64,000 bases of DNA. Origin: Rhodococcus sp. HM1. GTDB taxonomy: Bacteria; Actinomycetota; Actinomycetes; Mycobacteriales; Mycobacteriaceae. The stretch is from assembly GCF_023218075.1 (NCBI RefSeq), contig NZ_JALPTB010000036.1:1-64000 (forward strand), given 5' to 3'. Each line of letters begins with the position of its first letter. Positions within the stretch are counted from its first letter, which is position 1. Below, piece after piece: positions 6,021 to 42,882 of this stretch. The notes beneath the pieces were generated by a model, which was not told where the DNA came from, ran no database searches, and saw only the letters and a program-made list of their open reading frames with translations. A program made the position numbers and the translations under genes.

Positions 6021-6404
6021 ATGCGCACTCGCCCCGGCCCCGTCCAGTGGACCGCCTACGCCTTCGGACGCCCCCTACCCGCCTCGATGCGCGAATGGGT
6101 CCGCAACGACCTGGTCGGCGACCACGCCGTCCTCCGCCACATGATCCGCAGCCAGGTCCCGTTCCTCCCGGTCTACGCGGCCTTCCTACTGCTCCCCGGG
6201 CCGATCTGGCTCCGCCTGAGCACGGCGGGACTCGGCATGATGCTGTCGCTGTTCTTCTCCGTCGCCTACATGGCCCACAACCGCACGCGCCGGCTCGAGA
6301 AGAACGGACTGCCCGGCGACCTCGAGAACGACCGGGTCAAGCAGCGGCGCGCGGCCGAGCACGCCGCCTACGAGAAGTGGCGCAGCACTCTCACCCCGCA
6401 GTAG
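6021..6404 (+). CDS. DUF5313 family membrane protein
   Basis: 127 residues. The N-terminal PGPVQWTAYAFGRPLP and WVRNDLVGDHAVLRHM resemble the actinobacterial DUF5313 family, of unknown function. Two closely spaced hydrophobic segments (about residues 45-85, VPFLPVYAAFLLL and LGMMLSLFFSVAYMAH) indicate an inner-membrane protein with a basic cytoplasmic tail. ATG 6021 has GAGGAAG 11 bases upstream; the frame is open from 5952, but the family N-terminus fits 6021. Its 3' end overlaps the convergent tetR gene by 14 bases. Confidence 0.75.
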   Translation: MRTRPGPVQWTAYAFGRPLPASMREWVRNDLVGDHAVLRHMIRSQVPFLPVYAAFLLLPGPIWLRLSTAGLGMMLSLFFSVAYMAHNRTRRLEKNGLPGDLENDRVKQRRAAEHAAYEKWRSTLTPQ

Positions 6405-7020
6405 CGGGGGCGGCACCAGTAGCGGGGGCAGCACCGACCAACTCCGCGACCATCTCGCGCCCCAGTCGCAGCGGCGCGTCGCTGTGCTCGAGCTTCGACC
6501 CGGCGAGCGCGCCGTCGTAGATCAATCGGATCCGCAGGGCGAGGGCATCCGGTTCGGTGACGCCGGCCGCCGTGAGGAGTTCGACCAGCGTGCGCCGCAG
6601 CCACTCCCGGTGCGCGACCACCGGCGGAAACGATTCCTCCGGGAATTCCGTTGCGGCATTGGAGTATTGACATCCTCGAAAACCCTTCGAGGGCGCCGAC
6701 GCGAGTGCCAGGTCGAAGAAGGTGAGGATCTTGACGATCGGATCCTGCACACCGGCGACCGCACCTTCCCACCGGGCACGGTCCCGGCCGTCGAGCCGAT
6801 CCAGATAGGCGAGCACCAGCGCGTCCTTCGATCCGTAGGACGAGTACAGGCTGGCGCGTGCGACCCCCGATTCGGCGAGGATGCGGTCGATGCCGACGGC
6901 CCGGATGCCGTGTTCCGAGAAGAGCGCCGTCGCCGTCTCCAGGAGTCTTTCGGCAGGACCGGGCTTGCCGGTGCGGGTGTTCCGGCCGGTGTTCGACTCG
7001 GTGTGGGTGGAGACTGTCAC
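6391..7020 (-). CDS. TetR family regulator flanking the sulfur operon
   Basis: 209 residues from a GTG at 7020 (an alternative TTG at 7047 is less likely). The helix-turn-helix region spans ALFSEHGIRAVGIDRILAESGVARASLYSSYGSKDALV, followed by a TetR_C-type ligand domain. The C-terminus ends in a repeated GAAPAT. It is divergent from the leader peptide and sulfur-transport operon, and a 20-bp palindrome lies exactly between them (7048-7067), so it very likely represses both itself and that operon. The inducer is unknown. The 3' end overlaps the convergent DUF5313 gene. Confidence 0.85.
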   Translation of the reverse strand: MTVSTHTESNTGRNTRTGKPGPAERLLETATALFSEHGIRAVGIDRILAESGVARASLYSSYGSKDALVLAYLDRLDGRDRARWEGAVAGVQDPIVKILTFFDLALASAPSKGFRGCQYSNAATEFPEESFPPVVAHREWLRRTLVELLTAAGVTEPDALALRIRLIYDGALAGSKLEHSDAPLRLGREMVAELVGAAPATGAAPATAG

Positions 7021-7047
7021 GCCGTCGAGCCTAACCGACCCTCGCAA

Positions 7048-7067
7048 TAGACAGATCGGTCTGTCTA
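7048..7067. promoter_or_regulatory. TetR operator palindrome
   Basis: TAGACAGA-TCGG-TCTGTCTA: perfect 8-bp arms with a 4-bp centre, the shape of a TetR-family operator. It is 28 bases before the tetR GTG on one side and 9 bases before the first GTG of the leader peptide on the other. Binding here would block both divergent promoters. Confidence 0.75.
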
Positions 7068-7075
7068 CATGTACG

Positions 7076-7168
7076 GTGAGCTTCGTGACCCACCGCCAGC
7101 TGACCCGCCGCCTGCACGTGGACCTCGTGCGCGTGGCCGGCGCCGCGTGTTGTCACATTCACCGCTGA
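7076..7168 (+). CDS. Cysteine-responsive leader peptide (uORF)
   Basis: A tiny ORF of 30 residues from GTG 7076, or 27 residues from GTG 7085. It contains HRQLTRRLHVDLVRVAG and ends with Ala-Ala-Cys-Cys-His-Ile-His-Arg. The pattern LTRR-HVDL-RV followed by adjacent Cys codons (TGT TGT) closely resembles the small Cys-tract leader peptides known from mycobacteria and relatives upstream of sulfur-assimilation genes, where ribosome stalling at Cys codons under cysteine limitation raises downstream expression. The first GTG is so close to the operator that the transcript may be leaderless. The exact start is uncertain; the frame is supported by the motif. Confidence 0.75.
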   Translation: MSFVTHRQLTRRLHVDLVRVAGAACCHIHR

Positions 7169-7181
7169 CCGGCGAAGCCCC

Positions 7182-7221
7182 GCCCGTTCTCGGGCCCTGA
7201 CGCACGTCGACCGTGCCCGGG
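7182..7221 (+). promoter_or_regulatory. Possible attenuator: alternative hairpins after the leader peptide
   Basis: GCCCG (7182-7186) can pair with CGGGC (7191-7195), or CGGGC can instead pair with GCCCG (7215-7219). The two structures are mutually exclusive, as expected for an attenuator or translation switch positioned 14-53 bases after the leader stop codon and ahead of the DUF4242 gene. Drawn by eye, without folding energies. Confidence 0.4.
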
Positions 7222-7270
7222 TGCCGGCGCAGCGACACACCCCATCCCCGTTTCACCGGAAGGTGCCCTC

Positions 7271-7786
7271 ATGTCCCTGTACCTGTACGAACTCGTGCCC
7301 GCAGACGGCCAGGCCGACGCCGCGATCAAGGCGTTCGACGCCGAGGTCGCCGCGGCCGGCGGCGAACTCATCGAATCGCAGGTCACCACCGGTGGCGCCC
7401 GCGTCTTCGCGATCGCCGAGTTCGACGCCTGCCGCGCAGCCCAGCTCGAAGCCGCCCAGCTCGACGTCGCGGAGATCTTGGGCCCCAACGAAGTTCGTCT
7501 GGTCGGCGCGGATCTCGACGAAATCAAGGCAGCGCGTCCCGAGGCCGGCTATCTCGTCGAGTGGGACATCCCGGACACGATCGACATGGACACCTACCTG
7601 GCCCGCAAGAAGGCCAACTCCCCCAAGTACGCGAACGTTCCCGAGGTGAGCTTCCTGCGTACCTACGTCCGCGAGGACATGGACAAGTGCTTGTGCTTCT
7701 ACAACGCTCCGGACGAAGCCGCGGTCGTTCGCGCCCGCGAGGCCGTCAGCACTCCGATCGACCGCATCCACTCGCTCGAAGGGTAG
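7271..7786 (+). CDS. DUF4242 domain protein, first gene of the sulfur operon
   Basis: 171 residues, soluble. Two halves are visible: an N-terminal SLYLYELVPADGQ... ferredoxin-like segment and a C-terminal half with VSFLRTYVREDMDKCLCFYNAPDEAAVVRAREAVSTPIDRIHSLEG, which resembles DUF4242 small alpha/beta proteins. There are Cys residues at CLCF but no recognised catalytic site. GGAAGG lies 7 bases before ATG 7271. It directly follows the leader peptide/attenuator and precedes a flavoprotein and an ABC transporter, so a role in organosulfur use is inferred from context only. Confidence 0.7.
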   Translation: MSLYLYELVPADGQADAAIKAFDAEVAAAGGELIESQVTTGGARVFAIAEFDACRAAQLEAAQLDVAEILGPNEVRLVGADLDEIKAARPEAGYLVEWDIPDTIDMDTYLARKKANSPKYANVPEVSFLRTYVREDMDKCLCFYNAPDEAAVVRAREAVSTPIDRIHSLEG

Positions 7787-7793
7787 GAACCCG

Positions 7794-8843
7794 ATGACCG
7801 CGGCCATGGAACGAACCGACGAGCAACAGCGCCGGGCGATCGCAGAATTCGTGCGCGATCGCGCTGCCGCGCTGGATCGCGGGGAAACCGACACCCGGAT
7901 CGATCTCGCCCGGATCGGCGAATCAGGTCTTCTCACCGGCGGACTCGACGGCGGCGAACTACGGGACATGGTCGCGGTCATCGAGGACGTCGCAGCCGAA
8001 TCTCTCGCGGTCGGCTTCTCCCTGTGGGCACAGCGCATGGCCCTCGAGTACATCGACCGCGCGCCGGCGACGCTGCGCGGGAAGTTCCGCGACGACCTGG
8101 GCGCAGGCCGGCGGGTCGGCGTCACCGCCATGGCTGCGGCAATGAAACATCTTGCCGGCCTGGGTGATCTCACGCTCGCTGCGGAACGTACCGACGACGG
8201 TCTGGTGGTGTCCGGTCCGATCCACTGGGCATCCAACGTATTCGACGATGCACTCATCGTCTTCCCGGCGCGCACCGCCGACGGCAGCGGAGTCGTCGCC
8301 GCGGTCCGCGCGGACAGCCCCGGCATCCGCATCGATCCGCGGCCGGACCTGCTCGCCCTCGGCGCGACCGCATCGACCTCCCTGACGTTCGACCGGGTGC
8401 ACGTTCCGCACGACCAGATCGTCACCGACGAGCTCCGCTCGTTCTGCGGCGCCGTCCGCCCCACCTTCCTACTGTTGCAGACCTCCTTCTGCGTCGGGAT
8501 CTCTCGCACCGCGCTCGACGAATCCTGTTCTCGTACCACCGGACTCGGCGCACTGTTCGTCGACGAGTACCACGCGCTGCGGGACCGCTTCGACAACCTC
8601 CGCGACCGTCTCTACGAGTACGCCGGCGCTCCGGCGTCCGTGGCCCCGGCCGATCTGCTGCGGCTGCGCCTCGACGGTTCCTTCGTCGCGGTCGAGGCGA
8701 CGCGGCTCGAGTCGACGTTGCGCGGCGGCGCCGGCTACGCGTCCGCGAGCGCAACCAATCGCCGCTTCCGCGAAGCGGCCTTCCTGCCCATTCAATCGCC
8801 GTCGGAAGGACAGCTTCGGTGGGAACTCTCGCAGTACGAGTAG
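7794..8843 (+). CDS. Acyl-CoA dehydrogenase-fold flavoprotein (possible desulfurising monooxygenase)
   Basis: 349 residues with an acyl-CoA dehydrogenase-like fold: helical N-terminus, a middle domain with GRRVGVTAMAAAMKHL and VSGPIHWASNVFDDALIVF, and a helical C-terminus. The catalytic glutamate and the YxGTxEI motif of true dehydrogenases are missing. Within sulfur operons, enzymes of this fold (the SfnB/SfnC and DszC type) are flavin-dependent oxygenases acting on organosulfur compounds; that reading is inferred from the Cys leader and the SsuABC-like transporter. It starts 7 bases after the DUF4242 gene and its end overlaps the ATPase gene by 25 bases. Confidence 0.72.
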   Translation: MTAAMERTDEQQRRAIAEFVRDRAAALDRGETDTRIDLARIGESGLLTGGLDGGELRDMVAVIEDVAAESLAVGFSLWAQRMALEYIDRAPATLRGKFRDDLGAGRRVGVTAMAAAMKHLAGLGDLTLAAERTDDGLVVSGPIHWASNVFDDALIVFPARTADGSGVVAAVRADSPGIRIDPRPDLLALGATASTSLTFDRVHVPHDQIVTDELRSFCGAVRPTFLLLQTSFCVGISRTALDESCSRTTGLGALFVDEYHALRDRFDNLRDRLYEYAGAPASVAPADLLRLRLDGSFVAVEATRLESTLRGGAGYASASATNRRFREAAFLPIQSPSEGQLRWELSQYE

Positions 8844-9565
8844 TACAGGGCTACAAGAGTTTTCCCGGCCGGACCGAACCCGTTCTCGACGGGGTCGACC
8901 TCGACATCGACACCGGCGAGTTCCTGGTGGTGCTCGGCAGCAGCGGTAGCGGCAAGTCCACGTTGCTGCGCATCGTCGCCGGTCTCGACCGTCTCGACCG
9001 AGGCGCGGTCACCTGGCCCGAATCCGACGACGCGGCCCGCCCGCACACCGGTGTGGTGTTCCAGCAGCCGCTCCTGATGCCGTGGCTCACCGTTCGCGAG
9101 AACGTCGCATTCGGTGGACGTTTCGCCGCCCATCGCGACCGTTTCGACCCCGCGTACGCCGACGAACTGCTCGACACGTTCGGTCTCGCGGGTCTCGCCG
9201 GCTACTACCCGGACCAACTCTCCGGCGGTCAGGCACAACGGGTCGCGGTGGTCCGGGCCGTCGCGGTGCGGCCGCGGCTGCTGCTGCTCGACGAGCCGTT
9301 CAGCGCGCTCGACCCGGCGATCCGCGCGGATCTGCAGGACTGGCTGAGCGGGCTCGCCCGCGACCTGGGCTTCACCACGGTGCTGGTCACCCACGACATC
9401 GACGAGGCGCTGAGTCTCGCCGATCGCATCGCCCTGCTGGGGTCCGGCGGCCGGGTGCAACAGCAGTGGCACCTGGACCATGACGGAATCACCGAATCCG
9501 AACGGCAGCGGCTGCGCACCGAGATCCTCGCCCGCTACCGCGACACCGCACTCGAAATCGCATGA
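8819..9565 (+). CDS. ABC transporter ATP-binding protein (SsuB/TauB-like)
   Basis: 248 residues. Walker A GSSGSGKST at residues 40-48, Q-loop FQQPLLMPWLTV, signature LSGGQAQR, Walker B LLLLDEP and the switch His in VTHD are all present, so the ATPase should be active. The sequence around the Q-loop is typical of nitrate/sulfonate/taurine importers. Translation is taken from GTG 8819 with GGAAGGA upstream; it begins inside the previous gene. It energises import together with the next two genes. Confidence 0.88.
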   Translation: MGTLAVRVVQGYKSFPGRTEPVLDGVDLDIDTGEFLVVLGSSGSGKSTLLRIVAGLDRLDRGAVTWPESDDAARPHTGVVFQQPLLMPWLTVRENVAFGGRFAAHRDRFDPAYADELLDTFGLAGLAGYYPDQLSGGQAQRVAVVRAVAVRPRLLLLDEPFSALDPAIRADLQDWLSGLARDLGFTTVLVTHDIDEALSLADRIALLGSGGRVQQQWHLDHDGITESERQRLRTEILARYRDTALEIA

Positions 9566-10728
9566 GCACGAACATCGGCCGACGGACGCTGCTGCGCGGC
9601 GCCGTCGGTCTCGCCGCCGCGGGTGGCGTCGCAGGCCTTCTCGACCTGGGCCGGGCCGCGAGCACGGACCGTACGAACACCAGCGGCCGACTGCGCATCG
9701 GCTACCTGCCGATCACCGACGCCGCTCCCCTGCTCGTGGCACATCACGCCGGGCTGTTCGCCCCGGGCGTCGTCGACGACGTCCGCCCCGTGCTGTTCCG
9801 CAGCTGGGCCTCGCTCGCGGAAGCGTTCGTCACCCGCCAGGTCGACGTGGTCCATCTGCTCATGCCCATGGCGTTGCAGCTGCGGTATTCGCTGGGTAGC
9901 GCGGTGCGGGTCCTGGGCTGGAACCACACCAACGGGTCCGCGCTCACCGTCGCCCCGCACATCACCGAACTGGGGCAGCTCGCGGGCCGACAGGTGGCGA
10001 TCCCGTTCTGGTGGTCCATCCACAACATCACGGTCCAGCAGATGCTGCGCGCCCACGGCCTGCACCCGGTGATCCGGCAGTCCGCGTCGCGCTCGGCCGG
10101 CACCGTGGAGCTGGTGGTGATGAGCCCGTCCGACATGATTCCGGCGCTCGCGAACGGCTCGATCGCTGCGTTCACCGTCGCGGACCCGTTCAACGCCGCC
10201 GCCGACCTGCGCGGCATCGGCCGCATCCATCGGTTCCTCGGCGACGTGTGGCGCGAGCACGCGTGCTGCGCGCTGCTCGTGCACGAGGACCTCATCGAAC
10301 GCAATCCGACGGTGGTGCAGCAGGTCTCGGATTCCCTTGTGACCGCGCAGCTGCGGATCGGCACCGACCGCCGCGCCGCCGCGGAAGCCCTGACCGCCGG
10401 CTATCTGCCGCAGCCACTGCCCGCGGTGACCCGCGCGCTCACCTACCCCGAGCCGCCGGGAACCATCCGGCACCCCCAGTGGCATCCTCAGCGGATCGGC
10501 TATCAGCCGTTCCCGTTCCCGAGCTTCACCGAGGCGCTGGCGCTGGCCATGCACGACACGGTCGTCGACGGCGACACCCGTTTCCTGTCGCGTCTCGATC
10601 CCGCGACCGTGCACGCCGACCTGGTCGACGACCGCTTCGTGCGGACCTCCCTGGTCCGGGTGGACGGCACCGCCGCGTTCGGTCTGCCCGCAGATCTCAC
10701 CCGTATCGAGGAGGTCGATCCATCGTGA
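9562..10728 (+). CDS. ABC transporter substrate-binding protein (SsuA/NrtA-like)
   Basis: 388 residues. The N-terminus has a twin-arginine-like start (GRRTLLRGAVGLAAAGGVAGLL), suggesting Tat export; I see no lipobox cysteine. The mature part begins RLRIGYLPITDAAPLLVAHHAGLF, the standard opening of periplasmic sulfonate/nitrate-binding proteins, and later WWSIHNITVQQML and VADPFNAAADL. It overlaps the ATPase gene by 4 bases and the permease by 4 bases. Ligand inferred to be an organosulfur anion (sulfonate or sulfate ester) from the leader peptide. Confidence 0.85.
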   Translation: MSTNIGRRTLLRGAVGLAAAGGVAGLLDLGRAASTDRTNTSGRLRIGYLPITDAAPLLVAHHAGLFAPGVVDDVRPVLFRSWASLAEAFVTRQVDVVHLLMPMALQLRYSLGSAVRVLGWNHTNGSALTVAPHITELGQLAGRQVAIPFWWSIHNITVQQMLRAHGLHPVIRQSASRSAGTVELVVMSPSDMIPALANGSIAAFTVADPFNAAADLRGIGRIHRFLGDVWREHACCALLVHEDLIERNPTVVQQVSDSLVTAQLRIGTDRRAAAEALTAGYLPQPLPAVTRALTYPEPPGTIRHPQWHPQRIGYQPFPFPSFTEALALAMHDTVVDGDTRFLSRLDPATVHADLVDDRFVRTSLVRVDGTAAFGLPADLTRIEEVDPS

Positions 10729-11561
10729 GCACCACCGCGCTCGCTTCCCGTGCCCCCGTCCGTCCGCGCCAGGACGCGTGGTGGCCCCCGTTCGCCGCGA
10801 TCGCCGTCGCCGTGTTCGTGTGGTGGCTGCTCACCACCGTGGTCGCCGGATCCGATTCGCTGGTCCGGGAATTCGCACCGCAGCACGTGGTGCCCGCCCT
10901 CGGGGATCTGCTCTCCCGCGGAGTGCTGCTGCCGGATATCACGGCGAGCATGTGGCGGCTGCTGGTGGGGCTGCTGATCGCCGCGGTGGTCGGGATCCCG
11001 CTCGGGCTGCTCATCGGACTGAACCCGGTCGTCGAGCGGGCGTCGATGCCGGTGGTGCAGTTCCTGCGGATGATCTCACCGCTGTCGTGGGCTCCGATCG
11101 CGGTGGCGCTGTTCGGAATCGGACACCAACCGGTGTTCTTCCTGATCGCCGCTGCGGCGGTGTGGCCGATCGTCATCAATACCGCCGCCGGCGTCCACGG
11201 CATCGATCCGGGGCATCTGCTCGTCGCCCGGTCGTTCGGAGCCACCCGCCTCGAACAGCTGAGATCGGTGGTGCTGCCCGCGATCCGGGGACAGGTGCAG
11301 ACCGGTCTGCGCGTCGCCCTCGGCATCGCGTGGGTGGTGCTCGTGCCGGCCGAGATGCTCGGCGTCCGATCCGGACTCGGCTATCAGATCCTCAACGCCC
11401 GCGATCAGCTCGCCTACGACCAGGTGATGGCCGTGATCGTCGTGATCGGTGCGCTCGGCTTCTGCCTGGACTGGGCGGCCCGTCACGTGCTGCGCGAGCG
11501 CCGGCGGCCCGTGCGCGTCGAGGACGCCGACAACCCACGCACTCCTGCATCCCCCGAGTGA
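10725..11561 (+). CDS. ABC transporter permease (SsuC/TauC-like)
   Basis: 278 residues from GTG 10725, overlapping the binding-protein stop (GTGA). About six transmembrane helices are visible (from AAIAVAVFVWWLLTTVV to VIVVIGALGFCLDWAAR). The EAA-type cytoplasmic loop sits at VHGIDPGHLLVARSFGATRLEQLRSVVLPAI. The frame runs open far upstream, but that part is a shadow of the binding-protein gene. This is the last gene of the operon and converges on the mhpB-like gene 66 bases later. Confidence 0.87.
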   Translation: MSTTALASRAPVRPRQDAWWPPFAAIAVAVFVWWLLTTVVAGSDSLVREFAPQHVVPALGDLLSRGVLLPDITASMWRLLVGLLIAAVVGIPLGLLIGLNPVVERASMPVVQFLRMISPLSWAPIAVALFGIGHQPVFFLIAAAAVWPIVINTAAGVHGIDPGHLLVARSFGATRLEQLRSVVLPAIRGQVQTGLRVALGIAWVVLVPAEMLGVRSGLGYQILNARDQLAYDQVMAVIVVIGALGFCLDWAARHVLRERRRPVRVEDADNPRTPASPE

Positions 11562-11627: not shown

Positions 11628-12578
11628 TCAGACCAATGCGGCGGTAGTGACCGCGAAACCGGCGATGTATTCCTTGATCGGCTGGTAGAACTCGTACGTC
11701 ACCTCGAAAGGCCCACAGGCCCGCAACGCCGAGTACGCCGCAACCCACGTGCGGACCTCGTGCGAGGAATGCCCGGCGACCGCGTCCATCTCGTCCGCGG
11801 TGTATCGATCGAAATCCTCCACCCGCCCCGACGCGCACACCTCGAGGAACCCGCGGTCCCACTCGGGATTGAGGTCCATGATGTCGGCTTCACCGGCTGC
11901 GAAACGCCGCGCAGTGTCGATGGTGCGGGCCTGCCGGGCGGCACGAGCCTCGGCGGTGGGATGGCGACCGGCAGTGAGGAATTCACGCTGCGCCCCGTCG
12001 GCGGTCGCGAACTGCGGAACCGGCGGATCGTGCGAGAGTCCCCCGGACCCGAGGAACAGCACCCGTTTGTCGACGCTCGCGAAGTACTCCCCGATCGCCT
12101 GCCCCAGTGCTCGCACCCGCGACATCGGAACAAACGGTCGCGCAACGGAGTTGACGAACACCGGCAGTACCGGCGTGGCAGCGGGATCACCGTCGTAGAG
12201 AATCTCCAGCGGCTGCACGGCGCCGTGGTCGAGTTCCATGCGCCGCGAGATCGCCAGATCGATGTTGCGGTCGATCACGAACTGCGCCAGCTCCTCGGCG
12301 ATCGGCGCGGGAACGTCGAGTGCGCCGTCGAACGAGTCGTAGTCCCCGGTGCCGTGCGCCGCGAAGCCGAGACAGAACGGCGGCATCAGATCGTAGAAGA
12401 ACCCGTTGAAATGATCCGGGCCGAAGTTCACGACGAGCTCGGGATCGAAGTCGCGGACGAACGCCCTGGCCTGCTCGAAGGAGGCGTCGACAGCAGCGCG
12501 GACCTCGGCGGGCGGGTCGACGTGGTCGAGCAGCGGACTGTGCGACATGCACAGCAGCGCCTGCCGCCGGGTGCTCAT
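11628..12578 (-). CDS. mhpB: MhpB-like extradiol dioxygenase (2,3-dihydroxyphenylpropionate 1,2-dioxygenase family)
   Basis: 316 residues, close throughout to E. coli MhpB (LCMSHSPLLDHVDPP, NFGPDHFNGFFYDLMPPFCLG, VLPVFVNSVA, RVLFLGSGGLSHDPPVP, SSHEVRTWVAAY). These class III extradiol enzymes use Fe(II) to cleave the catechol ring of 2,3-dihydroxyphenylpropionate-type substrates. His13, His56 and His118 (in ELDHGAVQPLE) are conserved; His118 and the His in GGLSH match the catalytic histidines. The start ATG 12578 overlaps the mhpC-like stop by 4 bases. The exact side chain of the natural substrate is not certain. Confidence 0.9.
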   Translation of the reverse strand: MSTRRQALLCMSHSPLLDHVDPPAEVRAAVDASFEQARAFVRDFDPELVVNFGPDHFNGFFYDLMPPFCLGFAAHGTGDYDSFDGALDVPAPIAEELAQFVIDRNIDLAISRRMELDHGAVQPLEILYDGDPAATPVLPVFVNSVARPFVPMSRVRALGQAIGEYFASVDKRVLFLGSGGLSHDPPVPQFATADGAQREFLTAGRHPTAEARAARQARTIDTARRFAAGEADIMDLNPEWDRGFLEVCASGRVEDFDRYTADEMDAVAGHSSHEVRTWVAAYSALRACGPFEVTYEFYQPIKEYIAGFAVTTAALV

Positions 12579-13447
12579 CGGCCCGCCCGCGTGGAGTGGT
12601 GGCGGGCCAGATAGTTGCCGACGACCTCGTTGAACTCCTCGGCCCGTTCGACCTGCGACCAGTGCCCGCACCGGCTGAAGATGTGCGCGTCGGCGCGCGG
12701 GATCACGTTCAGCAGCTCCCACGTGCGCGAGACCGGGATGACGACGTCCTGCGTGCCGTGGATGAGCAGAACCGGAATGTCGAGTTCGGCAAGTACGTCG
12801 AAATCGAGCGGCAGTTCGTAGCGGTCCCGGTCGCGTGCGGCGACAACCGCCGCGAGCCGGTCGGAAGCGGTGTCGTTGAGGGCCGCGCGGTACCGAAGTG
12901 ACACCAGTTCGTCGGTGATCAGGCTCTTGTCGACGACGAACATCTCGAGGGTCTTCCGGATTCCGTCCTCGGTGAGGGTCGGATTCGAGTGCGCGGCCAG
13001 GGCGCCGGTGAGCTTGGCACCCCCGGTGCCCATCGACACGATGCCCAGCAGTCGCTCGGGAAAGTCGATCGCGAACTGGAACGCCAGCCATCCGCCGAGC
13101 GAGTTTCCGACGATCCAGGTCTTGTCGATGCCGAGAGCGTCGAGGACCCGGACGGCGTGGCGGACCCATTCCCGGATGCCGTATTCGGTGCCGTCCGCGA
13201 CCACGCTCTGCCCGTAGCCGATGGAGTCGATGGCGATACACCGGCCGTGCCTGGCCAGCTCGGGAAGGTTCAGCCACCAGTTCGCGGCCGCGGTCACGCC
13301 CGTGCCGGATCCGTGCAGGAACAGGATCGGCGTGCCCTCGCCGAGCTCGTGGTAGTGCGTCAGCTCGCCGTCGGCGGTCTGCAGCCACCGGTCCTCGAGA
13401 CCGAAGAAGCCGTCGGTGGTGTAGTTCGGAATCATGCTGGTCGACAA
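12575..13447 (-). CDS. mhpC: MhpC-like meta-cleavage product hydrolase
   Basis: 290 residues, alpha/beta-hydrolase of the C-C bond hydrolase family that splits the ring-fission product made by MhpB. LFLHGSGTGVTAAANWWLNLPELA, nucleophile motif GNSLGG, HGTQDVVIP (Asp) and FSRCGHWSQVERAEEFN (His) complete the triad. The start is taken as TTG 13447 because GGAGGAA is 7 bases upstream; ATG 13435 would put that site 19 bases away. It is co-transcribed with the MFS gene upstream and mhpB downstream. Confidence 0.88.
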   Translation of the reverse strand: MSTSMIPNYTTDGFFGLEDRWLQTADGELTHYHELGEGTPILFLHGSGTGVTAAANWWLNLPELARHGRCIAIDSIGYGQSVVADGTEYGIREWVRHAVRVLDALGIDKTWIVGNSLGGWLAFQFAIDFPERLLGIVSMGTGGAKLTGALAAHSNPTLTEDGIRKTLEMFVVDKSLITDELVSLRYRAALNDTASDRLAAVVAARDRDRYELPLDFDVLAELDIPVLLIHGTQDVVIPVSRTWELLNVIPRADAHIFSRCGHWSQVERAEEFNEVVGNYLARHHSTRAGR

Positions 13448-13479
13448 GATCGTTCCTCCAGGAAGTCGGGTCCGGTGGG

Positions 13480-14835
13480 TCAGGCTGTTGCGGTGTCGTC
13501 GCCGAGGTCGCGGTCCTTGGTCTCCTTGCCGAACACGACCGCGACGATCGTGACGAGGCAGGCACCGATCAGGTAGACGGCCACCATCGAGTACTGCTGC
13601 CAGCCGGTGTCCGCGATGTGGTTCTGTCCGAGGCTCCACAGCGCCGCGGCGATGAACGGGGTGAAGCCACCGACGGTTGCTCCGAGCTGGTACGCGAGAC
13701 CGGCTCCGGTGTAGCGGGACGAGGTTCCGAACATTTCGGAGACGTACGCCGCGAGCGGTCCGTACATGGAGGCCTGCAGGATCGAGTTGCCGAGGACGAA
13801 GCCCGCGAACACCAGCGCGACGCTTCCGCTGCCGAGCAGCATCAACAACGGCAGGGTCAGCACGATCGAGACGACGGCCCCGTAGATCAGCACACGGCGC
13901 CGGCCGAGGCGGTCGGACAAGTGCGCGAAATAGCCGATCGTGAACACGTGGATCAGGGCGGCCCCGGCCTTGCACAGCAGCACTGCGGTGGCACCGACGC
14001 CGGTGTTGGTTGCCATCGAGATCGCGAAGGTCGCCATGAAGGTCTGGAAGGCCAGCGCCGCCACTGCCGCAGCCGACGCGAGCAGCAGCGGGGTGCGGTA
14101 CCTGGTGAAGACGGTGACGATCGCCACCTCCCGCTTCGTGCGCGTCGTGTCCGAGCGCCTCTGCGCCTCTACGAACAGCGGGGACTCGGAGATCTTCAAG
14201 CGGATGAACATGCCGACCAGCACGAGCGCAGCGGACAGCAGGAAGGGGATCCGCCAGCCCCAGTCGAGGAACTGTTCGCGCGGCAAGGTGCTGAAGGCTG
14301 CGAACACCAATGTTGCGATCAGGGCGCCGGCGGGCCCGCCCATGTTCGCGAACGAGGCAGAGAAGCCGCGCTTGTTCGACGGTGAATGCTCGAGCGCCAT
14401 CAGGGCCGCTCCGCCCCACTCGCCGCCGACCGCGAGCCCCTGCACGATTCTCAGGCACACCAGCAGGATCGGTGCGGCGGCGCCGATCTGCGCACTGGTC
14501 GGAAGTAATCCGATCGCGCAGGAGGCGGCGCCCATCATCAGCATCGTGGTGACCAAGGTGGCCTTGCGCCCGATCCGGTCACCGAGTTGGCCGAACACGA
14601 TGCCTCCGACCGGCCGTGCGAGATAGCCGACGGCGAACGTCGCGAACGAGGCGGCCAAGGCGACTGCGGGCCCCTGATTACTGAAGAACAACGGACCGAA
14701 GACGAGGCTGGCCGCCGTGCCGTACAAGAGAAAGTCGTAGTATTCGATGGCAGACCCGAGGAAGCTCGACGCGAGCACCCGCCGGTACTCACGTTCGCGG
14801 TCCAACGAAACATGTTGTGTCACTTCGGTGGTCAT
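13480..14835 (-). CDS. MFS transporter, metabolite:H+ symporter family
   Basis: 451 residues with 12 predicted membrane helices. The start ASSFLGSAIEYYDFLLYGTAASLVF, GQLGDRIGRKATL and RIVQGLAVGGEWGGAALMALEH are typical of the MHS subfamily (shikimate, alpha-ketoglutarate, proline and aromatic acid symporters). It is the first gene of a minus-strand unit with mhpC and mhpB and is divergent from a LysR regulator, so it probably imports the phenylpropanoid or other aromatic acid degraded by that unit. Confidence 0.88.
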   Translation of the reverse strand: MTTEVTQHVSLDREREYRRVLASSFLGSAIEYYDFLLYGTAASLVFGPLFFSNQGPAVALAASFATFAVGYLARPVGGIVFGQLGDRIGRKATLVTTMLMMGAASCAIGLLPTSAQIGAAAPILLVCLRIVQGLAVGGEWGGAALMALEHSPSNKRGFSASFANMGGPAGALIATLVFAAFSTLPREQFLDWGWRIPFLLSAALVLVGMFIRLKISESPLFVEAQRRSDTTRTKREVAIVTVFTRYRTPLLLASAAAVAALAFQTFMATFAISMATNTGVGATAVLLCKAGAALIHVFTIGYFAHLSDRLGRRRVLIYGAVVSIVLTLPLLMLLGSGSVALVFAGFVLGNSILQASMYGPLAAYVSEMFGTSSRYTGAGLAYQLGATVGGFTPFIAAALWSLGQNHIADTGWQQYSMVAVYLIGACLVTIVAVVFGKETKDRDLGDDTATA

Positions 14836-14909
14836 TGTGTTTCGATCCTTCGGCTGTGGCGAGCACGGACAGCTCGGGGGTTGGTTCGAGATAGAAGGCG
14901 GTGCGTGAC

Positions 14910-15902
14910 ATGGGGTCCGAACCCGGACGCAGGGAGGTCGACTCCAGACTGCTGCGCACGTTCGTGGTCGTGGCGCAGGAAGAGAGTTTCACCCGGGCGG
15001 CCGCGCGACTGCAGGTATCCCAGCAGGCGATCAGCGGACACATCAAGTCGCTCGAGAGCATCCTCGGGACGAGCCTGTTCTCGCGTCACAGCACGGGTGC
15101 GAGGCTCACCGCGGCGGGCAGCAGGGTCATCGCGTACGCCGAGCAGGCTCTTGCGGCCACCGATGCGCTGTTCGAAGCGGCGGCAGGTGTGGATCGGCCG
15201 ATCCGACTGGCCGAGATCCGGAATCGGAAGATAATGCAGGAGATCTGGCGGGAGCACCGTCGGCGCTCTCCCGGCGACAGTGTCAGCTTCACCGACCTGA
15301 CCGGTGACGAACAGATCAATGCGCTGACGAGCGGCCGCATCGACGTGGCGATGCACTCCGCCACACGCGTCGAAGCGGCGTTTACCCAGGCACTGTTGCG
15401 CCTCGATCCGGTCAAGTGTTTCCACATCCACGACCTCGGCGCGCCGCTGCTGCGTGGTCAGCGGATCGGGTACACGGGCGTGGAGTCCCGCTTCTCGAGC
15501 TGGCAGCGATTCTGCCTGCGGATGGCACCGGATGTCGGCGCGAAGCTCGAACTCGTTCCACACGACATCACGATGCTCGAGGCCATCGGGCAGCAGATGA
15601 TCCAAGGCGACGTGCCTCCCGTTCTGGTTCTCGAGGGCATGGAGCAGTACGCAGAGGCGGACCACTTCAATTTCCACTACTTTGCCGATATCCAGCCGTA
15701 CTACCCGTGGGCGATTTCGATCCGGCGGGACGAGCGGCGACCGGATGTGCTGGCCTTCTTCGAGACTGCGCTGGCGGTCCGGACCCAAAAGGGTTGGCTC
15801 AGGCCGATTCGCCCGGAGGTTCCACAATGGCTCCCGTCCGAATTGGTCGAGGATGCGTCGTTGCGTCACGAGTTCTCCGGCTTCGACATGTTCGGCGCGT
15901 AG
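14910..15902 (+). CDS. LysR family transcriptional regulator
   Basis: 330 residues from ATG 14910 (GTG 14901 is an alternative). The LysR helix-turn-helix is clear: VDSRLLRTFVVVAQEESFTRAAARLQVSQQAISGHIKSLESILGTSLFSR, followed by a PBP2-like effector domain. It is divergent from the MFS-mhpC-mhpB unit across a 74-base gap and is the likely activator of it; the effector may be the imported aromatic acid or a ring-fission product. The 3' end lies 9 bases from the convergent ferredoxin reductase gene. Confidence 0.88.
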   Translation: MGSEPGRREVDSRLLRTFVVVAQEESFTRAAARLQVSQQAISGHIKSLESILGTSLFSRHSTGARLTAAGSRVIAYAEQALAATDALFEAAAGVDRPIRLAEIRNRKIMQEIWREHRRRSPGDSVSFTDLTGDEQINALTSGRIDVAMHSATRVEAAFTQALLRLDPVKCFHIHDLGAPLLRGQRIGYTGVESRFSSWQRFCLRMAPDVGAKLELVPHDITMLEAIGQQMIQGDVPPVLVLEGMEQYAEADHFNFHYFADIQPYYPWAISIRRDERRPDVLAFFETALAVRTQKGWLRPIRPEVPQWLPSELVEDASLRHEFSGFDMFGA

Positions 15903-15911
15903 CGCGGCCCC

Positions 15912-17081
15912 TCAGGCCACCTTCGCGCGGCAGGTCGCGACCGACGCCCCGACGCTCACCAACTGCCGCATCCGGCCGAGGTGCCGCGGCTGATCGATCA
16001 GGAGAGCACCCGTGATCGCACTGTCGGTTCCGTACACACCGACGAAGCTCATCGATTCGAGCGAGCCGACGATCGGTGTCAGCGTGGCGTTCTCGCCGAC
16101 CCGGCCGAGCACCTGGACCTTGTGGGAGTACTGATCCGACCAGAAGTAGTCCGGCATCTCGATCGACGGCGACCTGCCGGATCGGCCGGCGATATCGGCG
16201 GCAACGGATTTCGCATCCGCGATCGCCGCTGCCCAGTGCCCTTTGGACGAACGCACGACATCACCGGCGGCCCACACCCGCTCCCCGGCGCGACCGGATC
16301 CGGTGACCCCGACGCCTCTCGGGTCGTAGAACGGAGTCCCGGCGAGCCACTGCACCGACGGCCGGACCCCGACCGCGACCAGCACCGCCTCCGCCGCGAC
16401 GACAGTGCCGTCGGCGAGGCGGACACCTTCGACAGCCTGGTCACCCAGCAGCGCCGCAACGTCACTGGAATGATGCACGGCCACACCGCGACCACGGTGT
16501 AGATCCGACACAGCCTGCGCGACCGCATCGCCCAGCGCGGGCGCAAGCGGCGCGGCCTCCCGCAGCACCATGGTGACGTCGATTCCCATCGACCGAGCGG
16601 TCGCGGCGACCTCGGTTCCGACGAATCCGCCGCCGACCACGACCAGAGAGTTCACCGCAGTCAGGGTGCTGCGCAGTGCTCGCGCATCGGCGAGCGTGCG
16701 GAGTTCGTGAACACCGGCGATCTCCCGATACCAGGGCGGGCGAATGCAGGCGGCACCGGTGGCGATCACCAGATTGTCGTAGCCGATCGTCTCTCCGTCG
16801 GCGAGACCGACGATCCGCCGGTCGACGTCGACGCCGACGGCACGCGCACCGAGGACGAGTTCCACAGCAGCGGAACCGATCTCGTCGTCCGAGCACAACG
16901 ACAGTTCCTGGGGTGCGACGGCGCCGGAGAGGAAGCCCTTCGACAGCGGCGGCCGATCGTAGGGCCGTTCCGGCTCCTCACCGACAAGGGTGATCGGCCC
17001 GTCGTAACCCTCGCGACGCAGATCCTGAGCGGTGCGGATCCCGGCCAGCGATGCCCCGACGATGACTGTCCCGCTAGCCAT
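15912..17081 (-). CDS. Ferredoxin reductase (FAD/NAD(P)H-dependent) of the dioxygenase system
   Basis: 389 residues. FAD-binding GASLAGIRTAQDLR at the N-terminus, NAD-binding VVGGGFVGTEVAA in the middle and the late FAD motif ERVWAAGDV define the ring-hydroxylating-dioxygenase/P450 ferredoxin reductase family (HcaD/BphA4-like). It passes electrons from NAD(P)H to the ferredoxin encoded just upstream. ATG 17081 has GGAGCAGGAA before it and overlaps the ferredoxin gene by 8 bases, so the two are translationally coupled. Confidence 0.9.
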   Translation of the reverse strand: MASGTVIVGASLAGIRTAQDLRREGYDGPITLVGEEPERPYDRPPLSKGFLSGAVAPQELSLCSDDEIGSAAVELVLGARAVGVDVDRRIVGLADGETIGYDNLVIATGAACIRPPWYREIAGVHELRTLADARALRSTLTAVNSLVVVGGGFVGTEVAATARSMGIDVTMVLREAAPLAPALGDAVAQAVSDLHRGRGVAVHHSSDVAALLGDQAVEGVRLADGTVVAAEAVLVAVGVRPSVQWLAGTPFYDPRGVGVTGSGRAGERVWAAGDVVRSSKGHWAAAIADAKSVAADIAGRSGRSPSIEMPDYFWSDQYSHKVQVLGRVGENATLTPIVGSLESMSFVGVYGTDSAITGALLIDQPRHLGRMRQLVSVGASVATCRAKVA

Positions 17082-17277
17082 TTCCTGCTCCCGCTGTCAT
17101 CTTGATCGCGAGTGCCGGACATGCGTCGGCAGCATCACGGATCTCGGTGGCCGATGCGTGGGCTGCCGTCGGCAGCACCACCGCCTTGCCCGCGTCGTCC
17201 ATCTCGAAGACGTCGGGAGCAAGGATGGTGCAGATGGCGTGACCGGCACACTTGCTGCGGTCGACGATAATTTCCAT
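17074..17277 (-). CDS. Single-cluster ferredoxin (3Fe-4S type)
   Basis: 67 residues. Cys10-Ala-Gly-His13-Ala-Ile-Cys16 and Cys53-Pro give three cysteine ligands, with His in the position of the fourth: the pattern of actinobacterial [3Fe-4S] ferredoxins that serve P450s and Rieske oxygenases. It lies between the alcohol dehydrogenase and the reductase, overlapping the latter by 8 bases, and should carry electrons to the dioxygenase at 18.6-20.4 kb. Note that classical HcaC/BphA3 partners are Rieske ferredoxins, so this is a different ferredoxin class in that role. Confidence 0.88.
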   Translation of the reverse strand: MEIIVDRSKCAGHAICTILAPDVFEMDDAGKAVVLPTAAHASATEIRDAADACPALAIKMTAGAGNG

Positions 17278-17290
17278 GCGAGTTCCAATC

Positions 17291-18376
17291 TCAATTCATC
17301 AGGACTGCGGTATGCAGGGGTGCCGGTGCGCTTCCCTCGCCGGCAGCATCGACGAAGGCATTGTCGAGTTCGTCGATGCGGTAGGTGCGTTCGCACAGCC
17401 GTCCCAGCGCAGGCTCGGAAGCCAGCCAGCGCAGTGCAGCGGTGATCGCCCAGCTCGGCCGCGCCCACAGGCCCCGGACGGTCAGCTCCTTCTGTGCGAC
17501 GAGGTCGGTGTCGATGAGCGGCCGGGACGCACCGCGCTTCATACCGCCCCACAGCACGCGTCCGCGCACCGCTGCGAGCCGGATACTCGCCTCGACGGGA
17601 TGCGCGACGGATGGCGTCATGTCCATCACGATGTCGGGGCTGCCGCCGAGCACTTCGACCACGGCCTCCTCGACGTCCTCGGCCGGAGCGACGACCACCT
17701 GGCTGCCGAGTTCGCGGGCCACCGCGAGCCGGTCGCCGTCGCGGTCGGTGCCGACGACGACGACCTCGGAGGCTCCCAGACGCAGGGCCGCGGCCGCGGA
17801 CGCAATGCCGTGCTGACCGGCGCCGAAGATCGCGACCCGTTCCCCGGGCCGGAGTTCGCCGCTGTCCCCCATCCACGCCAAACCGTTGGACAGCGGAATA
17901 TACAGGGTTGCAAGCTCGTCCGAGACACTGTCGGGGACGCGATGGAGCTGGGTCCGCGGGTGCAGATACATCAGCGGGGCGAATCCGCCCCACAGGCTCG
18001 GCGCCGTATCGGTCGACGTGTATCCGTACCGGATCCCCGAGCGTGTGCACAGCCGCTGATGGCCGGACCGGCACAAAGCACAGAACATGCAGGGGACGGC
18101 CTCTTCGATCGCGACCCGATCGCCCGGTCGCACGTCCCACAGCGCGGCGGCCGCGGGACCGAGATCGGCGATCCGACCGATCACCTCGTGCCCGAGAACC
18201 ACCGGCCCGTCGTGCTTCTTCTCACCGCGCCAGCTCGCCACATCGCTGCCGCACAATCCGCAGGCGAGAACCCCGAGCAGTCCGTCGTCCGCGCCGAGCA
18301 CGGGCCTGTCGAAGCGACGGGTCTCGAAACGGCGCGGTGCCGTCAGCACCCGTGCCGCGATGTCAGTGTCGGACAT
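17291..18376 (-). CDS. Zinc-dependent medium-chain dehydrogenase
   Basis: 361 residues. Catalytic-zinc motif CGLCGSD (Cys39-Cys42), GHE (His63), a structural-zinc lobe CMFCALCRSGHQRLC and a Rossmann motif GAGQHGIASAAA show an MDR of the alcohol/threonine-dehydrogenase type. ATG 18376 (GGAG upstream) overlaps the preceding 80-residue ORF by 14 bases. Embedded in the Rieske dioxygenase operon, it may oxidise the cis-dihydrodiol, a step usually done by an SDR not found here, or a side-chain alcohol. Confidence 0.85.
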   Translation of the reverse strand: MSDTDIAARVLTAPRRFETRRFDRPVLGADDGLLGVLACGLCGSDVASWRGEKKHDGPVVLGHEVIGRIADLGPAAAALWDVRPGDRVAIEEAVPCMFCALCRSGHQRLCTRSGIRYGYTSTDTAPSLWGGFAPLMYLHPRTQLHRVPDSVSDELATLYIPLSNGLAWMGDSGELRPGERVAIFGAGQHGIASAAAALRLGASEVVVVGTDRDGDRLAVARELGSQVVVAPAEDVEEAVVEVLGGSPDIVMDMTPSVAHPVEASIRLAAVRGRVLWGGMKRGASRPLIDTDLVAQKELTVRGLWARPSWAITAALRWLASEPALGRLCERTYRIDELDNAFVDAAGEGSAPAPLHTAVLMN

Positions 18377-18605
18377 CGATGCTCGCTCCATTCGTCTCGT
18401 CGTACTCGTAGATGCCCACGCGGATGAGTTCGGCACGCCGATCCTCGGGCCATGTGCACAGGCTGGCGAGTTCGATCGGATCCAGATAGGTGCGACCACC
18501 GGTCTCCCGGTCCTCGACGAGAAGCCGTGCACCGCACCGCGTGTGCTCGAGCGTGAGCCGGATGTTGGCGAACTCGTTGCGGAAGTCGATGTGGGGCTGT
18601 GTCAT
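18363..18605 (-). CDS. Small unknown protein of the dioxygenase operon
   Basis: 80 residues, acidic, no signal peptide or membrane segment. The sequence includes FANIRLTLEHTRCGARLLVEDRETGGRTYLDPIELASLCTW and YEYDETNGASI. I do not recognise a family. Its position between the dioxygenase beta gene and the dehydrogenase gene, the 14-base overlap with the latter and its normal codon usage support a real gene. It could be an accessory or stability factor for the dioxygenase, but the sequence gives no function. Confidence 0.65.
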   Translation of the reverse strand: MTQPHIDFRNEFANIRLTLEHTRCGARLLVEDRETGGRTYLDPIELASLCTWPEDRRAELIRVGIYEYDETNGASIDVRH

Positions 18606-42804: not shown

Positions 42805-42882
42805 GCTGAGCCACCTTCCGGAGTGCCGGTTCACCCCTGCGCTGCCGGAGTCGACCGTCGGCCCACTTGCACAGCGCTTCTC

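Follow-up and report, generated by a model that had tools for sequence, protein, structure and literature searches.

The window analysed here, a stretch of 64,000 nucleotides at the start of a contig from Rhodococcus sp. HM1 with a G+C content of 69%, contains a five-gene operon that opens with a gene for a DUF4242 protein, a divergent gene for a TetR-type repressor and, between the two, a short open reading frame with two adjacent cysteine codons near its end. The features of the locus are listed in Table 1. The DUF4242 gene is followed by genes for a flavoprotein and for the ATPase, substrate-binding protein and permease of an ABC transporter, and these four were all present in 67 of the 71 operon loci compared. 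No Pfam match was found for the flavoprotein at E 0.001, and its relatives in the PDB were acyl-CoA dehydrogenases and, weakly, DszC. The PDB relatives of the substrate-binding protein were nitrate, bicarbonate and taurine binders. The sequence KCLCFY in the DUF4242 protein was invariant (20 of 20 aligned sequences); a PDB profile search using the DUF4242 alignment gave 0 matches, and a literature search on DUF4242 with sulfonates found no mention of DUF4242 among 15 listed papers out of 23,811. Converging on the operon, the minus-strand genes at 11628-18532 resemble genes of aromatic degradation and include a LigB-type ring-opening dioxygenase, an alpha/beta hydrolase, an MFS transporter, a ferredoxin reductase and a zinc alcohol dehydrogenase.

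Table 1. Genes and regulatory features of the DUF4242 locus in the window
Feature	Coordinates	Strand	Evidence or remark
Divergent gene for a TetR-type repressor, start codon uncertain	6391..7047	-	Pfam TetR_N 48.3 bits
Palindrome TAGACAGATCGGTCTGTCTA, probable TetR operator over the promoter	7048..7067	.	Conservation in operon loci
-10 box TACGGT	7072..7077	+	7 nt before GTG 7085
Leader ORF, 27 codons, MTHRQLTRRLHVDLVRVAGAACCHIHR, probably leaderless	7085..7168	+	NF042934 match; pN/pS
Conserved motif VDLVR codons (offsets 0 to +4)	7118..7132	+	
TGT, Cys codon at offset +10, proposed sensing codon	7148..7150	+	Codon conservation in leaders
Second TGT, not generally kept	7151..7153	+	No second Cys after the motif in 27/42 orthologous leaders
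C-rich spacer from leader stop to ribosome-binding site, candidate Rho-loading region	7169..7257	+	
GGAAGG, Shine-Dalgarno sequence of the DUF4242 gene	7258..7263	+	Invariant in 11 aligned Rhodococcus-type sequences
DUF4242 / SCO4226-like protein, 171 aa	7271..7786	+	Pfam PF14026 79.5 bits
Flavoprotein, acyl-CoA dehydrogenase type, distantly SfnB-like	7794..8843	+	TIGR04022 SfnB 34.5 bits (cut-off 430.9)
ABC transporter ATPase, true start perhaps near 8840	8819..9565	+	ABC_tran 102.5 bits
Substrate-binding protein, SsuA/NMT1-like	9562..10728	+	NMT1_2 133.5 bits; SsuA family 72.5 bits (cut-off 163.5)
ABC permease, start uncertain, inside ORF 10011-11561	10725..11561	+	BPD_transp_1 90.1 bits

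The sequence-only reading had described a GTG-started ORF of 27-30 codons whose product ends in AACCHIHR before the stop, and had taken it for a cysteine leader peptide of a pattern known from actinobacteria. The ORF was present as described, with 30 codons (7076-7168) or 27 codons (7085-7168), and the assignment was borne out by a match to the NCBIfam model NF042934 (cis_reg_atten, "putative leader peptide") with 36.7 bits against a cut-off of 27 (E 2.2e-9). The alignment covered model positions 3-19 of 19, and its last aligned residue was a Cys. In the 6.9 Mb genome the leader was the top NF042934 match (35.3 bits in the genome scan) among 15 matches at E <= 10, 4 of which passed the cut-off. 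The same model gave weak matches in 10 of 14 control genomes and matches above the cut-off in 0; together with the score, this indicates that the leader ORF is more than a chance occurrence. The model of the Cys-rich leader Ms5788A (NF042933) scored 22.1 bits on the window leader, under its cut-off of 45. When the frame was compared among 21 leaders, pN/pS was 0.30, and 0.17 over codons 6-18, whereas the shifted frames gave 1.35 and 3.13. Judged by this substitution pattern, the reading frame is under purifying selection. The leader peptide is real and belongs to the known actinobacterial kind of cysteine leader.

Two surveys were used to follow the leader through relatives of the operon. In the family survey the DUF4242 protein was found in 35 of 201 genomes; 30 loci of these 35 were analysed, and the leader stood ahead of the operon in 21 of them. 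In the survey of named records 80 loci were kept of 234 relatives, the closest at the locus being Rhodococcus phenolicus and R. zopfii, with DUF4242 proteins 95% identical to that of the window. Thirty-four of the 80 loci fitted the motif pattern, and removal of two of these without a Cys after the motif (L137 and L140) left 32 of 80 with a leader. Nine of the 80 loci (seven Actinomyces, two Kocuria) carry DUF4242 without the rest of the operon; their exclusion gave the 71 operon loci. The leader was present in Rhodococcus, Prescottella, Nocardia, one of two Gordonia, Tomitella, Pseudonocardia, Saccharopolyspora and one Streptomyces, and it was absent from the Mycolicibacterium, Mycolicibacter, Mycobacterium, Mycobacteroides and Dietzia loci among the 80. 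On a midpoint-rooted tree of 70 loci, leader presence changed 4 times and was placed at the root, compared with a minimum of 18 changes in 200 label shuffles.

From both surveys, orthologous leaders were gathered via the downstream gene, the sole requirement concerning cysteine being some Cys after the motif; 11 duplicates were collapsed, reducing 53 sequences to 42 distinct ones. The earlier reading had put the start at 7076 first. At the position of GTG 7085, 11 codons before the V of the motif, a start codon was found in 42 of the 42 leaders (39 GTG, 3 ATG), compared with 12 of 42 at the position 9 nt further upstream, which is 7076 in the window and where the GTG overlaps the -10 box. The start at 7076 was rejected on this count, and GTG 7085 is, from the alignment, most likely the start of the leader. 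A TANNNT box lay 5-9 nt ahead of the leader start in 39 of the 42 leaders (exceptions L046, L054 and L090), against 243 of 72000 arbitrary positions. Among leaders drawn with NF042934, whose starts are less certain, a -10 box was found 5-9 nt ahead of the start codon in 30 of 56. A generic sigma-70 scan found nothing. The box 7 nt before GTG 7085 and its presence in nearly all orthologs amount to the geometry of a leaderless mRNA, and the leader mRNA is probably leaderless, with its 5' end predicted at or beside GTG 7085.

Upstream of the -10 box, the 20-bp palindrome was recovered with at least 14 of 20 bases in 67 of the 71 operon loci, comprising all 32 that have the leader and 35 of the 39 that lack it, compared with 1 of 40 shuffled upstream regions. 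A relative of the TetR gene was present in 58 of the 71 loci and missing from 11 Dietzia-type loci, L124 and L139. From its position and conservation the palindrome is a probable TetR operator. Palindrome and gene were a median of 205 nt apart where the leader is present and 45 nt apart where it is absent. Since promoter region and operon also occur without it, the leader appears as a module of about 160 nt placed between the two, and it must be dispensable, having been lost in the mycobacterial and Dietzia loci where operon and operator remain. The sequence-only reading had given the cysteine leader and the operon without the divergent TetR gene and its probable operator, the probable leaderless start at 7085, the position-locked UGU described next and the permease gene.

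Offsets within the leader were counted from the V of VDLxR as 0. In all 42 distinct orthologous leaders the first Cys after the motif stood at +10, and its codon was TGT in every one, compared with TGT at 25 of the 166 Cys codons in 34 window genes. The earlier proposal that the Cys-Cys pair is the sensing signal had to be given up, as 27 of the 42 leaders have a single Cys after the motif. In the comparison of relatives the first Cys codon was kept, and neither the second Cys nor the pairing segments discussed below were.

Codon choice was also determined in leaders of other operons. The best-scoring 60 NF042934 loci gave 56 distinct leaders (L153-L155 were not scored), including two DUF4242 leaders; without L152, which has no Cys, 55 were counted. 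At +10 TGT was used in 51 of 55 and TGC in 4 of 55, whereas at +3 there were 3 TGT and 30 TGC (Fisher p 7e-16, a value that, like the other p-value in this work, is too small because the leader sequences share ancestry). The longest ORFs downstream of these leaders had TGT at 20 of 127 Cys codons. In such draws the position of the Cys is not independent, since the model ends on that Cys, but the identity of the codon is. TGT was also favoured at +8 (16 of 20) and +11 (8 of 8). Among these leaders the third base of the codon was A or T with a frequency of 0.93 at +10 and 0.07 at +9; for the DUF4242 set the figures were 1.00 at +10 and 0.71 at +8 and +11. Fresh leaders from the family of G303 had TGT at +10 in 28 of 28 and TGC at +3 in 14 of 15. 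Those from the order of G260 (6 of 29 loci not scored) had TGT in 20 of 21, with no Cys at +10 in 2 of 23. Third-position A/T at +10 was 1.00 and 0.95 in these two groups and at most 0.38 at any other listed offset. The two leaders with no Cys at +10 (L241 and L251, with the endings SST and SSALPPRR) have possibly decayed or are tuned to another residue.

As judged from these alignments, the conserved feature of the leader is one position-locked UGU, ten codons after the V. A search with a tRNA-Cys pattern, which could miss a gene unlike the pattern, gave one match in the genome, with anticodon GCA according to ARAGORN. Both UGU and UGC appear to be read by this one tRNA-Cys, in which case the choice between the two synonyms would tune the sensitivity by way of the weaker G-U wobble pair, and UGU may be the more sensitive codon through slower reading. 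We tentatively propose, at a little under even odds, that actinobacterial cysteine leaders are single-codon sensors and not counters of Cys runs, the nascent chain RRxHVDLxRxxxA serving to position an obligatory UGU at +10. A statement of the +10 UGU rule was not found in the literature searched, a provisional result in that the main leader study of 2020 lies outside that search.

Two other explanations of the conserved leader are affected by these data. If TetR control of the promoter were the whole of the regulation and the leader a relic without effect, retention of the operator in 67 of 71 loci, including those without a leader, would follow naturally; purifying selection on the frame and an unvarying UGU at +10 would not, and we regard this as very unlikely. 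The peptide might instead act in trans as a small protein, its effect on the operon being secondary, as conservation of the amino acids well past the Cys codon could suggest. Such a protein would give no reason for UGU over UGC at +10 (third-position A/T 0.93 to 1.00), and every leader sits before its own operon, so that we give this explanation hardly any weight.

A third explanation places the function mainly in an RNA hairpin inside the leader (GCACG..CGUGC; window 7118-7130), with the reading frame as a by-product. The core of the leaders in the DUF4242 set folded better than synonymous controls (mean z -1.26; percentile under 0.1 in 10 of 25), and in variants with L in place of V (L048-L052, L056 and L058) the stem persists as GCACC..GGUGC, which hints at a hairpin within the reading frame for this branch. 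For leaders of other operons, however, the effect was small (mean z -0.32; 9 of 51), and a hairpin leaves unexplained both the UGU, which is outside the stem, and the pN/pS of codons 6-18, making this a very improbable account of the leader. A family-wide hairpin was likewise rejected, being clear in the DUF4242 set only. No Rfam family was found for the leader region at gathering thresholds. The only Rfam match of the window lies elsewhere, at 42808-42878 on the minus strand (RF02992, hya RNA, a cis-regulatory family, 69.2 bits).

The sequence-only reading had further proposed that three GC segments in the spacer pair in two mutually exclusive ways, which corresponds to a trp-type transcription attenuator in which the position of the ribosome decides whether the segments fold into a terminator or an antiterminator. 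The segments GCCCG (7182-7186), CGGGC (7191-7195) and GCCCG (7215-7219) are indeed present in the window, and triples of 5 bp occurred in 10 of the 42 orthologous spacers against 3.8 expected from shuffles, at differing places. Folding of the 42 spacers was also slightly stronger than that of shuffles, with a mean z of -1.00 and 8 of 42 spacers below -2. Among 11 aligned sequences, however, the two closest relatives, R. phenolicus and R. zopfii, lacked the first segment at the corresponding position, and the second and third segments aligned in those two only. Dinucleotide shuffling of the window's own spacer produced such a triple in 116 of 2000 cases (75 if all-GC), and the window RNA folded no better than shuffles (z -0.04 for 7085-7290 and +0.46 for 7169-7275). 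No intrinsic terminator, that is, no hairpin with a T run, was found in 6950-7900, where 0.4 was expected in shuffles. RNAalifold on the 11 relatives gave a covariation term of just -0.44 and left the spacer without a paired hairpin. The three segments were therefore rejected as a conserved switch, and a trp-type attenuator at this locus is very unlikely.

All 42 orthologous spacers had more C than G (0.07 to 0.32), as did 53 of 56 spacers of the NF042934-drawn leaders and 28 of 28 and 23 of 23 spacers of the fresh groups. For 26 upstream regions of window genes the corresponding range was -0.18 to 0.16, which overlaps that of the spacers (Mann-Whitney p 3e-9). C-rich spacers of this kind are candidate Rho-loading sites, and Rho-dependent termination as the step in the spacer has, in our estimate, not quite an even chance; a ribosome waiting at 7148 would expose most of the spacer, which counts against it. 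Masking of the ribosome-binding site as the final step is somewhat less probable. In models of 21 loci the unpaired fraction of that site was 0.26 in the free RNA, 0.21 with a stalled ribosome and 0.27 with the ribosome at the stop. Simple masking relieved by stalling found no support in this result, as the modelled stall does not free the site. Direct pairing between leader and ribosome-binding site found none either, being weaker than in random synonymous leaders (mean z +0.75, 21 loci).

Taken together, we consider the segment 7048-7270 to be a two-input switch, a cysteine attenuator of a known kind on a TetR-controlled promoter that senses cysteine through one position-locked UGU, and we assign this reading a probability of roughly 0.7. 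The parts of it that can be read from the DNA are the leader with its selected frame, the arrangement typical of a leaderless mRNA, the fixed position of the codon and its being UGU, the operator and the operon. The TetR-type repressor would govern the promoter of the five-gene operon, the transcript would begin at or next to GTG 7085, and a ribosome would start at once on the 27-codon leader. After making RRLHVDLVRVAGAA it would meet UGU at 7148, ten codons past the V of VDL. With ample charged Cys-tRNA the ribosome would pass the UGU, stop and leave, and the C-rich spacer would keep operon expression low. With scarce Cys-tRNA it would wait at the UGU and the operon would be expressed. By analogy with experiments of others on relatives, the operon is thus expected to respond to cysteine and to be on when cysteine is scarce, as the sequence-only reading had also supposed. 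The nascent chain may contribute to the stall.

Leaderless polycysteine short ORFs of mycobacteria were reportedly described by Canestrari et al. in 2020. Leaderless Cys-rich short ORFs in mycobacteria are treated in PMC4633059, and cysteine-dependent translation attenuation in M. smegmatis is described by the citing papers PMC9031893 and PMC13236596. The window leader resembles the polycysteine ORFs as a probably leaderless short ORF with Cys codons that heads a probably sulfur-related operon. It differs from them in that a run of Cys is not needed, two being present in the window and one in most orthologs. Masking of the ribosome site has been described for M. smegmatis, whereas modelling of leaders of the window type gives it no support.

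In arrest peptides of the TnaC type with a Rho read-out, conserved nascent residues stand at a fixed distance from a stall site near the end of the ORF. The window leader is similar in that its selected residues lie at a fixed distance from the proposed stall codon. It differs in its signal, which would be a lack of charged tRNA and not a bound ligand, and arrest by the peptide is putative. A comparison of cys leaders with tna was also drawn in PMC1262725, which describes Cys leaders without terminators ahead of Mycobacterium cys operons and suggests Rho, in a prediction that its authors call weak. Those leaders share with the window leader the Cys codons near the stop, the lack of a terminator hairpin and a pyrimidine-rich spacer, while the window has a different operon and a TetR-controlled promoter. 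The alphaproteobacterial uORFC-8-2 before cysS (PMC8632094) is a short ORF with Cys codons taken as a ribosome-mediated attenuator; it differs by its tandem Cys codons, the dominance of UGC and an intrinsic terminator. NF042934 itself is a protein profile and silent on the codon, and no source found for it names the DUF4242/flavoprotein/ABC operon as a target. The kind of leader is known, and this target operon was not found described.

Seven further Cys leaders were identified in the genome, 3 above the NF042934 cut-off and 4 accepted by eye, and all seven have a Cys at +10 encoded by TGT. They precede a rhodanese/mercaptopyruvate sulfurtransferase with DUF4395 (L021), an alkanesulfonate monooxygenase (L026), a reductase of the NIR/SIR family (L027), a cystine-type ABC transporter (L024), a flavin reductase (L023), a small protein resembling the end of NtaA-family monooxygenases (L022) and a pyridine nucleotide oxidoreductase (L025), which we take to be FprA-like. 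The downstream genes are plainly sulfur-related at 4 of the seven and compatible redox genes at 3. Two of these leaders, L022 and L023, face each other about 1.9 kb apart (G000:C235, 4213 on the minus and 2287 on the plus strand), and genomes G316, G332 and G343 each have a pair of leaders on opposite strands, separated by about 0.5 kb. The genes of the DUF4242 operon are themselves only weakly named, and its probable place in sulfur metabolism is read from the company that the leader keeps elsewhere in the genome, which agrees with the earlier view of the operon as sulfur-related. The five-gene operon probably serves to import an organosulfur compound and to oxidise it.

A conserved and uncharacterised DUF4242/flavoprotein/ABC operon is in this way placed under probable cysteine control, which points to an organosulfur substrate. 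Changing TGT to TGC, a single synonymous base, should weaken the regulatory response and leave the proteins unchanged, and the mycobacterial and Dietzia loci, which share operator and operon but have no leader, constitute a natural control. If the proposed rule is true, a single-UGU rule holds for leaders of many different operons across several families of actinobacteria, and the TetR-controlled DUF4242 operon would join the cysteine regulon.
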